DNA of 64,000 nt from Lachnospiraceae bacterium (GTDB lineage: Bacteria > Bacillota > Clostridia > Lachnospirales > Lachnospiraceae), in the NCBI GenBank assembly GCA_029053015.1, contig JAIDHX010000035.1, positions 62,001-126,000 on the forward strand. The letters are read 5' to 3'. Position 1 is the first letter of the stretch, and each line of letters begins with the position of its first letter. The notes beneath the pieces were generated by a model, which saw only the letters and a list, made by a program, of their open reading frames with translations, searched no databases and was not told the origin of the DNA. Below are positions 3,360 through 60,823 of this stretch, piece by piece. The translations under genes and the position numbers were made by a program.

Positions 3360-3805
3360 TCCAATCCCAGCCTTTCTTTAAATACTTTTCGAAAACTTCT
3401 GGAAATATAGCTTTCCATGCCGTTTTTCATAACCAGTTCCATCGTTCCGTTAAAGCCCGCCGCCACATGGCTGATTCGCCGGATGTTGATGATGGTGGAT
3501 TTGGAAATCCGGACAAACCGGCTGCCAAGAATCTGTTCCAACTCATACAAGGGCTTGCTCAGCACATACCGGTTTTTCACCCCGTCGTAGCATACAACCT
3601 CCCTCCCCTCCGTACACACCAGATCCAGCTTTTCCGGCTCCATAAAGTAGGTCTTTCCCTCCCTTACCGCAATCAGCGTCAAAGAATCTGTTTCCGCTCT
3701 TTCCAGCAAAAAAATCGCCTCCGCAATTGCCGGCGTCATCTTCTCTATATGAAGAACCGCATAAGGTTCTTTGTAATCCGTACTGATTTTACATTCTACC
3801 TTCAT
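3356..3805 (-). CDS. LytTR-family DNA-binding regulator
   Basis: About 149 residues. The C-terminal part (about 45-148) is a LytTR domain with the typical YFMEPEKLDLVCTEGREVV, LYELEQILGSRFVRISKSTIINI and F-R-K-V-F-K signatures. There is no receiver domain, so it belongs to the membrane-inhibited LytTR class and not the AgrA/LytR two-component class. The start at 3805 follows AGAGG; an upstream in-frame ATG at 3862 lacks a ribosome site. It overlaps the DUF3021 gene by 4 nt. Confidence 0.88.
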   Translation of the reverse strand: MKVECKISTDYKEPYAVLHIEKMTPAIAEAIFLLERAETDSLTLIAVREGKTYFMEPEKLDLVCTEGREVVCYDGVKNRYVLSKPLYELEQILGSRFVRISKSTIINIRRISHVAAGFNGTMELVMKNGMESYISRSFRKVFKERLGLE

Positions 3806-15759: not shown

Positions 15760-15787
15760 TGTACAAGGTTGCTACTTGGCGAGTCAC

Positions 15788-15853
15788 GCCGGGAGTGGAG
15801 GGATATGTCCGGGCAGACGCGCTCTCGCTCGGACATATCCCTCCACTCCCGGC
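15788..15853 (-). repeat. Structured intergenic repeat, copy C (short form)
   Basis: A perfect 24-bp inverted repeat (15788-15811 with 15830-15853) encloses an 18-nt loop. On the minus strand the loop holds GAGCGAGAGCGCGTCTG, identical to the same part of copy B. Inside it GC-GAGA-GC (15821-15828) is a mini-hairpin with a GNRA tetraloop. This copy lacks the second helix and the apical motif of the other copies. Its 5' flank on this strand, GTTTCAGCC, is the same as that of copy B. It is not a normal terminator, since it has no T-run. Confidence 0.8.
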
Positions 15854-16077
15854 TGAAACGCGCGAAAGGTGCTCCCCACACCAGACCGATTCTCACTTAA
15901 AAAATGCAGCGTAGCAAGTATGCGAAAATGACCGCTATGCTGACTGCCGACATTGTGCGCAACTACCAAACCGCCACTATAACTTGTCCATACACGCGCC
16001 ATTGCGGTTTTACTACAACTCCCTTTTTTGCGGCAAGGAACGCTGCCGTGGTTTGCAGCGGGTAACAGCCGGATTGT
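15854..16077. other. Non-coding interval between repeat copies C and D
   Basis: 224 bp between two inverted structured repeats. I see no gene with a ribosome site. A 98-codon frame on the minus strand runs through copy C and is judged spurious. The segment has several short imperfect inverted repeats, for example around 15908-15948. It may be the inner part of a mobile or RNA-coding unit bounded by C and D. Confidence 0.4.
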
Positions 16078-16192
16078 CAAGCTATTCCTATGGCGCCCGT
16101 TAAGAAGCGTCGGCGCTTAGCGAGGTTTTTTCGAGCTTAGCGTCCGCTACGCTTCTTTTCGAACGAGAGTGGGGCGCCGTAGGAATAGCTTG
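16078..16192 (+). repeat. Structured intergenic repeat, copy D
   Basis: The outer helix pairs 16078-16098 with 16172-16192, 21 bp with one T-G wobble. The inner helix pairs 16102-16110 with 16149-16157 (9 bp, perfect), then GGCGCT (16112-16117) with AGCGTC, a T-T mismatch, AGC with GCT, and the apical motif GAGGTTTTTTCGA (16122-16134). On the 3' side AC-GAGA-GT (16163-16170) is the GNRA mini-hairpin. Stems differ from copies A and B while loops are the same, so paired positions have changed together. Confidence 0.85.
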
Positions 16193-16235
16193 CCAAATCG
16201 GCGTCCCTCTCTGCAAACTCATCACCTTCCGCGCG

Positions 16236-59683: not shown

Positions 59684-59827
59684 TTTACAATTTTCCTTTC
59701 GTCCATAAAAGCACCGGACAACTTTCTTTTTCCTCATGTCTGTTTGTTATTATAACATTAATGCTGTGTAGAATCCATAAGAATTTTGGATTATTTATTG
59801 GAATGTTTTGATAAGGATGCGAGAGAC

Positions 59828-59962
59828 GCGGGAAGAGGAGAGATATGTCTGTTCAGACGCGCTTTCGCTCTATAAAAACGTAACAGTACTAGGCTCGAAA
59901 AAACCTCGCCAAGTACTGACGTTTTTAAAAGGTCTGAACAGACATATCTCTCCTCTTCCCGC
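59828..59962 (-). repeat. Structured intergenic repeat, copy A
   Basis: A perfect 31-bp outer helix pairs 59828-59858 with 59932-59962. On the minus strand the inner helix is AAAAACGT/ACGTTTTT, a TT bulge, CAGTACT/AGTACTG, a T-T mismatch, GGC/GCC and the apical motif GAGGTTTTTTCGA (59895-59907). The GNRA mini-hairpin is GC-GAAA-GC (59861-59868). The core is nearly identical to copy B, yet the outer 20 bp are unrelated to it. This copy points in the opposite direction to copy B. Confidence 0.88.
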
Positions 59963-60081
59963 TGAATCTTGCCAGCTAACAAATACATAATATTTATTGC
60001 TCTTACTTGTTTTAGGTAAATCGGTATGTTATCTTTATAAAGAAAGTAATAGATGTTTGCAAAACATTTCTTTGCAACACA

Positions 60082-60157
60082 AGAAATGTTTAATATAGAC
60101 AAAATAAGGGAGACTTGCCACTGCTTCGAAAGCGTTTTGTCTATATTGAACATTTCT
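60082..60157 (+). repeat. Inverted repeat in the leader of the DUF3781 gene
   Basis: 23-bp arms, 60082-60104 and 60135-60157, pair with one T-G wobble in the plus-strand transcript. TGCAA/TTGCA further out extends the stem. The 30-nt loop ends in CGAAAGCG, the same 8 bases that precede the 3' arm in copy A. It may be a divergent fifth member of the repeat family. It ends 43 nt before the DUF3781 start. Confidence 0.65.
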
Positions 60158-60200
60158 GTTACTTGCATCTTTCGCAATTAAGAAATAACGGAGGTATTGA

Positions 60201-60437
60201 ATGAACGACTTACTTGAAAATATTGATAAACTACATACAACAGAAATGGGTGTGGAACGTATAAAAAAGAATCTGCAAATTGAAGTAGATGACGTTGTTC
60301 AATGGTGTAAAACTCAAATTTTAGATAAAGACGCAGTCATTGAAAAGACAGGGAAAAACTGGTACGCAACTATAGATAACTGCAAAATAACAGTAAACGC
60401 AAATAGCTATACAATCATTACAGCTCATAAATTATAA
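60201..60437 (+). CDS. DUF3781-family small protein
   Basis: 78 residues, cytoplasmic, with the DUF3781 pattern LHTTEMGVERIKKNL, DVVQWCK and ITVNANSYTIITAHK. The function is unknown. GGAGG precedes the ATG. It is the only plus-strand gene in a long minus-strand run around parAB and is flanked by structured repeats A and B in inverted orientation, which suggests that it was inserted here together with them. Confidence 0.8.
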   Translation: MNDLLENIDKLHTTEMGVERIKKNLQIEVDDVVQWCKTQILDKDAVIEKTGKNWYATIDNCKITVNANSYTIITAHKL

Positions 60438-60537
60438 AACATTTTTGAAACAGAATTGTTGAATAGATATGAGTTGATACTAGGTGAATGTCCAAGTCAA
60501 AACTATAATTGCCGAAATGTACTTTTTGCAAGTTTCA

Positions 60538-60670
60538 GCCGATATCGAAACACTTTCCTGTTCAGACCTTTTAAAAACGTCAGCACTTGGCGAGGTTTTT
60601 TCGAGCCTAGTACTGTTACGTTTTTATAGAGCGAGAGCGCGTCTGAATAGGAAAGTGTTTTGATATCGGC
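60538..60670 (+). repeat. Structured intergenic repeat, copy B
   Basis: A 30-bp outer helix pairs 60538-60567 with 60641-60670; the only two imperfect pairs are G-T wobbles on this strand. The inner helix and apical motif GAGGTTTTTTCGA (60592-60604) match copy A, with one changed base that gives a C-A mismatch here. The mini-hairpin is GC-GAGA-GC (60631-60638). The outer arm sequence beyond TTCAGAC is unrelated to that of copy A. Confidence 0.88.
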
Positions 60671-60689
60671 GTAACTTTCTTAAATAATA

Positions 60690-60736
60690 TGTTTCACGAA
60701 AAAGACAAACCTTTTAAAAATGTTTCACGATTCCTA
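60690..60736. promoter_or_regulatory. Two degenerate parS-like sites
   Basis: TGTTTCACGAAAAAGA (60690-60705) matches parS at 13 of 16 positions. TGTTTCACGATTCCTA (60721-60736) keeps only the first half. They may be weak ParB sites or decayed copies. Confidence 0.45.
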
Positions 60737-60757
60737 TTACAATATCTAGCGCAAAAA

Positions 60758-60773
60758 TGTTTCACGTGAAACA
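60758..60773. promoter_or_regulatory. parS: parS site 1
   Basis: TGTTTCACGTGAAACA, a perfect match to the bacterial parS consensus and a perfect 16-bp palindrome. ParB encoded 2 kb away should bind it. Confidence 0.96.
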
Positions 60774-60806
60774 TTATCTTGTGGTCATCTCTCAATAAAC
60801 ACAAAA

Positions 60807-60822
60807 TGTTTCACGTGAAACA
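60807..60822. promoter_or_regulatory. parS: parS site 2
   Basis: A second perfect TGTTTCACGTGAAACA, 49 bp from the first and directly next to the stop codon of the response regulator gene at 60824. Confidence 0.96.
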
Positions 60823-60823
60823 T

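Follow-up and report, generated by a model that had tools for sequence, protein, structure and literature searches.

A dispersed family of facing hairpins with a conserved fold and drifting stems in Lachnospiraceae

Introduction

Mobile insertion cassettes (MICs) of Bacillus cereus and MITEs are non-autonomous elements with inverted ends, short terminal repeats and optional passenger genes. The attC sites of integrons are long imperfect hairpins with a variable stem, extrahelical bases, AAC/GTT-like bases and an R-box, and they stand in an array in direct order. BIMEs often have different subtypes at their two ends, as does the hairpin family described here. One account of REPINs presents them as extragenic inverted doublets of REP palindromes (PMC3116915), and a length of 20–40 bp is given for REP palindromes in a paper whose title also names the GTAG/CGTC tags (PMC3733652). 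The clostridial TwoAYGGAY RNA (RF01731), with no function assigned, is described as a structured motif enclosed by an external stem that is long and little conserved (PMC4333381).

In this work, we analysed a 64-kb stretch of DNA from a Lachnospiraceae bacterium (hereafter, the window) and the hairpin family to which two of its hairpins, A and B, belong. Like REPINs and BIMEs, the family consists of extragenic palindromes in inverted doublets, in dozens of copies, with singlets and tandems and with no transposase inside. Unlike them, its hairpins are about 135 nt long with a three-way junction and a drifting stem, they show no link to PF01797, and some intervals hold genes. The outer foot reads GCRGC-AAGTS-ACGCC and not GTAG/CGTC as in REPs. 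REPINs are the closest kind in organisation; we do not file the family there because their defining transposase does not track the hairpins, and because size and foot differ.

With MICs and MITEs, the family shares the non-autonomous character, the inverted ends, the optional passenger genes and, at one site, a 9-bp flanking repeat. It differs from them in that the ends are long folded hairpins, and no parent transposon with the same ends was found among the 40 largest ORF clusters within 2.5 kb of the hairpins. By analogy, the unit may work like a REPIN or a mobile insertion cassette with large folded ends. The likeness to attC lies in long imperfect hairpins with a variable stem, extrahelical bases, conserved AAC/GTT-like bases and accessory genes of the cassette type. 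However, the sites face each other and are scattered over many contigs, with no array seen and no R-box consensus by eye; membership of attC was rejected on these inverted, scattered pairs in place of a directly repeated array.

Results and Discussion

Hairpins A and B

Hairpins A and B (Table 1) are oppositely oriented with 575 nt between them and appear to form both ends of a single unit located between parA and a response-regulator gene (both named by eye). The DUF3781 ORF enclosed by them is likewise present between their orthologues in the sister species G017.

A recount of the pairing agreed with the stems given in the original prediction (31 bp, perfect, in A; 30 bp with two G-T pairs in B). 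The arms of A (59828–59858/59932–59962) were paired at 31/31 positions, and those of B (60538–60567/60641–60670) formed 28/30 Watson–Crick pairs, the other two being G-T on the + strand. The inner parts, earlier called near-identical, indeed differed at only 2 positions over 73 nt when read in the same sense, while the outer 20 nt of A and B were identical at 6/20 positions in the 5′ arm and 7/20 in the 3′ arm. None of 200 shuffles folded as well as either hairpin (z scores for both strands: A, −14.1 and −15.9; B, −11.4 and −11.9). A was the sole site in the window with perfect 20-nt inverted arms spaced 30–120 nt, in a scan that could not count B (wobbles) or the hairpin at 15785 (shorter loop).

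Among 21 pairs measured, with a mean core identity of 75%, none had cores as alike as those of A and B (97.6%); their similarity is older than the split from the sister species. Conversion between the two ends is a likely cause.

Table 1. Coordinates of the hairpins and associated features in the window.
Feature	Position	Strand	E-value	Remarks
Hairpin A, left end of unit	59828..59962	+		basal stem P2 of 31 bp without mismatch, 73-nt core; subtype 1 in core orientation
Hairpin B, right end, inverted	60538..60670	-		30-bp stem P2, two G-T pairs on + strand
Covariance-model match to A	59825-59960		4.7e-38	A itself part of model
Covariance-model match to B	60540-60673		6.6e-34	B itself part of model
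Mini-hairpin of A	59859..59868	+		loop GAAA (GNRA) on opposite strand
Mini-hairpin of B	60631..60640	+		loop GAGA (GNRA) on + strand
P3 of A	59873..59927	+		inner helix, conserved AACG-YA-RYGG / CGTT motif, apex variable
Outer flank of A	59816..59827	+		position of family outer consensus GCRGC-AAGTS-ACGCC; diverged in A
Outer flank of B	60671..60682	-		outer consensus inverted, diverged; + strand GTAACTTTCTTA
Inner flank of A	59963..59972	+		family consensus GGCTGAAAGCNGC (52 copies), diverged in A
Inner flank of B	60523..60537	-		inner consensus inverted; + strand GCAAGTTTCA preceding stem
78-aa ORF between A and B	60201..60437	+	6.4e-33	DUF3781 (PF12636)
Separate inverted repeat inside unit	60082..60157			23-nt arms, upstream of DUF3781 ORF; not matched by hairpin model
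Second unit in window, left hairpin	15785..15851	+	1.5e-5	P3 lost, basal stem perfect
Second unit in window, right hairpin	16070..16205	-	3.5e-35	subtype 2 by eye

Copies in the genome

A blastn search of the own genome returned 46 match rows with A and 48 with B, a few of which were self-complement matches. The profile search of fetched stretches gave 68 hairpins, to which three were added later and two by the covariance model in the window; this count takes in contig-end and half copies. Thus, the genome holds about 70 copies, mostly in inverted pairs: 56 of 71 form 28 such pairs and 15 are unpaired, some of them at contig ends. The spacing was 64–770 nt in 25 pairs and more than 2 kb in the other three, with a core-to-core distance usually of 60–300 nt (22/28). 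By subtype, which was assigned by motif so that the split is approximate, 19 pairs were 1/2, six were 1/1, three involved subtype 3 and none was 2/2.

Over all loci, orthologues and overlapping loci included, 80 of the 90 neighbours separated by less than 900 nt face each other, and inverted pairs occur in other genera too (L237, L248). The outer consensus, a profile of 59 own copies, stands 5′ of the core in all 59. The arrangement in inverted pairs, which the original prediction overlooked, points to a dispersed DNA element.

At two loci (L064:2912-3088 and L081:311-487), the outer half of a hairpin is duplicated in tandem, the two parts joining at its apex, and outside other copies there are tandem remnants that are shorter.

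Distribution

Within the genus, blastn found the hairpin in 44 of 101 genomes, the own genome included. The original prediction had proposed a covariance-model search of Lachnospiraceae; run in this way, it found the hairpin in 83 of 200 genomes (own included) and in 82 of the 199 genera sampled. A class-wide draw at a stricter limit gave 10 of 392 genomes, and all ten, the own genome among them, were Lachnospiraceae. Named carriers among the matches listed were uncultured Lachnospiraceae and Acetatifactor and Eisenbergiella MAGs, with some entries labelled 'uncultured bacterium'; the assignment of the host family to Lachnospiraceae is based in part on these names. Viral contigs gave no match to an exact pattern, nor did phages and plasmids in blastn with the core of A.

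The original prediction knew no named element of this design. In agreement, neither the window hairpins nor the 20 loci from other genera matched Rfam at the gathering score, TwoAYGGAY, whose core differs, included. The best match below that score, MIR529 (E 4.3e-5; 31.6 bits, where the gathering score is 75), was rejected as a chance match of a long perfect hairpin. The family is not described among the matches listed in the open-licence PubMed Central literature and is apparently undescribed.

Locus L235 carries two TwoAYGGAY RNAs (1674-1839 and 3532-3698), by eye inside longer flanking inverted repeats, one of the RNAs being about 190 nt from a hairpin of the Lachnospiraceae family that itself has no Rfam match. 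It is possible that TwoAYGGAY, too, is a dispersed palindromic element with a comparable design.

Conserved fold and drifting arms

In the hairpin, a variable, near-perfectly paired basal stem leads to a three-way junction, whose other two arms are a GNRA mini-hairpin and an inner helix carrying conserved bulges. Across genera, the core (CGCTYTCGCT, AACG-YA, CTAA) is conserved and the stem sequence is not. Alignments were made of 60 of the 68 own copies (A1, with contig-end, half and elongated copies left out) and of 55 of 59 references (A2). For the 60 own copies, RNAalifold gave 46 pairs, 39 of them with double changes. Another 20 genera, with one genome each, yielded 23 matches, of which one was weak (L252 6307, 28.5 bits); here double changes were found in 37 of 40 pairs. 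The cross-genus cells with double changes numbered 279 against 78 after shuffling, and 93% of cells were paired against 35–40% with the partners slid; the fold is favoured both by the choice of the 20 loci from the best-scoring matches and by an alignment that follows the structure of the model.

The GNRA tetraloop proposed for the side mini-hairpin was recovered almost throughout the family. Read on one strand in 211 distinct sequences, the loop was GAGA in 144, GAAA in 49, GGGA in 14 and GCAA in one, i.e. GNRA in 208; since the outer G and A are set by the parse, this tests the third base alone. The remaining three were parses at the wrong hairpin place, and 3 of 339 rows were unparsed; one of these copies, L141, reads AGGA in the loop (by eye).

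As for the arms, the outer 20 nt of A agree with those of two further own copies at 17/20 positions, and the outer 20 nt of B with those of one copy at 14/20. The best match of shuffled arms had a 95th percentile of 12 and a maximum of 14 (n = 300), and the arm match of B is at the edge of chance. The outer arms that had been called unrelated are so for A against B only, as A matches other copies. The dissimilar arms of the two hairpins appear to be end points of a compensated drift; this is clear for A and less certain for B. The original prediction had asked for selection on the fold or a mechanism building new arms; of this, a conserved fold maintained through compensatory changes is supported, while newly built arms are not needed because the arms of A, at least, join a continuous arm family.

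Insertion sites and enclosed genes

Mobility of the units is supported by few sites. In G000 and G017, one unit, which in G000 holds a 207-aa ORF, lies between two copies of AAAAAAGGG, and G027 lacks the unit and has a single AAAAAAGGG. This 9-mer is the flanking repeat of that unit, at one site in two species. G027 also lacks the L075 pair, with no clear repeat at that site, where G017 has a remnant. Several other presence/absence sites were deletions or gene replacements and not clean insertions. Between relatives, hairpins were deleted (L124/L263, L073/L119) or lay in messy indels (L108/L127, L067/L129, L123/L262). In L125/L132, a lipoprotein-like gene (no Pfam family) between hairpins corresponds to a GNAT gene beside an apparent hairpin remnant, and in L103/L259, a hairpin pair and a Nudix-like gene (named by eye) occupy one spot.

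Direct repeats were not in excess at 42 distinct pairs (12 with at least 4 nt against about 8.3 expected from shuffled flanks), in a weak test whose fixed boundary misses the AAAAAAGGG repeat too. Many sites are common to sister species, which indicates that movement is rare or old. No recurrent transposase or recombinase was found beside the copies in the 40 largest clusters, named by eye, of ORFs that lie at most 2.5 kb from hairpins at 169 loci.

The genes enclosed by hairpin pairs encode Nudix, Rce1-like (CPBP) protease, GNAT, DeoR, AAA kinase, DUF3781, D12 methyltransferase and Cass2-like (27.4 bits, cut-off 27) proteins. At L252:3470-5827, a D12-class adenine methyltransferase gene, an unassigned 236-aa ORF and a gene for a Cass2-like, integron-associated effector-binding protein lie between facing hairpins, one of which is weakly matched. 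The long interval of L173 holds FtsH- and UvrC-like housekeeping genes (by eye), and since such genes occur in some long intervals, some intervals are not cassettes.

Possible nature of the unit

We propose, as a reading with an even chance of being right, that the A/B unit is a REPIN-like, composite and non-autonomous dispersed element whose ends are folded and which an enzyme supplied in trans would move. Such elements have been seen so far in Lachnospiraceae only. Most of their stem sequence changes without loss of the folded shape, and some of them apparently contain accessory genes. The ends would act as folded DNA, either as a single-stranded hairpin or as a cruciform, and the enzyme would recognise them mainly at the conserved core. 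With recognition centred on the core, the stem need only pair and its sequence would be free to drift. Selection for the fold would keep the stem paired, and template switching in replication, copying changes from arm to arm, probably helps. A unit that encloses an accessory gene, such as the DUF3781 gene between A and B, may act as a gene cassette.

The hairpins are widespread in a dominant gut family and provide a natural test of how the perfect pairing of long hairpins is maintained, by selection or by template switching. If the enzyme is found, this may be a DNA mobility system that reads shape and carries accessory genes among gut bacteria.

DNA or RNA

It is unlikely, but deserves real weight, that the hairpin is a structured RNA, small or cis-acting, made from the GNRA strand, with copies that spread passively. 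The GNRA loop in nearly all distinct sequences (given a parse that fixes the outer G and A), the three-way junction, the conserved bulges and the strong cross-genus covariation are all in favour of this. However, GAAA and GAGA mini-hairpins are very stable as DNA as well, which we count against an RNA. The AGGA loop of L141, the absence of an Rfam match and the roughly 70 copies, mostly in inverted pairs and superfluous for a single RNA, also argue against it.

Wobble pairs bear on this question directly, since selection on one RNA strand should make G-U far commoner than A-C on that strand. In 65 own copies (three of the 68 were dropped for want of an anchor), the top strand held 74 G-T and 76 A-C pairs, and single changes in 23 hairpins between sister species were WC>GT in 41 cases and WC>AC in 47. 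These two counts are symmetric. Split by subtype and origin, the top strand gave GT/AC of 12/30, 22/22, 38/37, 18/33 and 15/32; three of the five groups reached p < 0.05, each with G-T in excess on the GNRA strand, and the sum was GT 105 against AC 154 (p 0.003, with related copies not independent). The cross-genus count (GT 24, AC 14, p 0.14) had its excess towards the non-GNRA strand. On the RNA reading in the original prediction, the wobble counts are divided: one is modestly biased to the GNRA strand, two are symmetric and one leans slightly to the opposite strand. A bias this modest counts against strong selection on one RNA strand and, being small and inconsistent, favours maintenance at the DNA level. 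The GNRA loop together with the G-T excess on its strand still leaves room for an RNA.

Other explanations

A more specific version of the mobile-element reading, which we consider doubtful, treats the facing, sequence-variable DNA hairpins with their conserved three-way-junction core as the substrate in a gene-cassette system of Lachnospiraceae, whose recombinase would read shape and not stem sequence and would move small accessory genes (for acetyltransferases, Nudix proteins, a DNA methyltransferase and DUF proteins) between intergenic sites.

It is improbable that the hairpins are passive palindromes, functionless now, whose arms are kept complementary by template switching and whose ends are duplicated by slippage. 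Template switching in replication has been described for the stems of RNA genes (PMC8794818), and the 42 double Watson–Crick to Watson–Crick changes in 30 orthologous hairpins fit selection or template switching alike. The tandem half-hairpin duplications joined at the apex and the copy at 15785-15851, which lost P3 while its stem stayed perfect, also agree with passive palindromes. On the other hand, conservation of the core across genera without conservation of the stem calls for selection or for a recent spread. None of the 59 own copies with the outer consensus showed an inverted core, which would be a mark of template switching. In addition, double changes were richer in transitions than unpaired changes (32:10 against 160:101), which also speaks against a purely passive origin.

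REPINs proper, in which a RAYT (Y1 HUH) transposase moves REP doublets of inverted orientation, are very unlikely, even though the organisation is alike, with extragenic inverted doublets, singlets and tandems as described in PMC3116915. The own genome has one weak PF01797 match (E 5.8e-4), this family is absent from 14 of the 23 genomes with at least 14 hairpin matches, and the hairpins are far longer than the REP length given in PMC3733652. RAYT/Y1 was rejected as the mobiliser because PF01797 did not track the hairpins in the co-occurrence test.

A role as transcription terminators or insulators between genes is just as remote: many own-genome copies have A/T tracts at the base of P3, and a terminator-like hairpin and T-run stand just outside 12 of 59 copies, compared with 57 of 1180 positions drawn at random, in coding sequence too, but the T-tracts are lost in many other-genus copies and in subtype 3, and of the 37 classifiable units (43 in all) only two lie between convergent genes, with 25 between tandem and 10 between divergent genes, on which grounds this role was rejected.

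Palindromes near parA/parB

Two ATGTTTCACGTGAAACAT palindromes and a partial copy lie near parA/parB in the window (60754-60823 and 60686-60706). They resemble ParB-binding parS sites, which would put the window near the replication origin.
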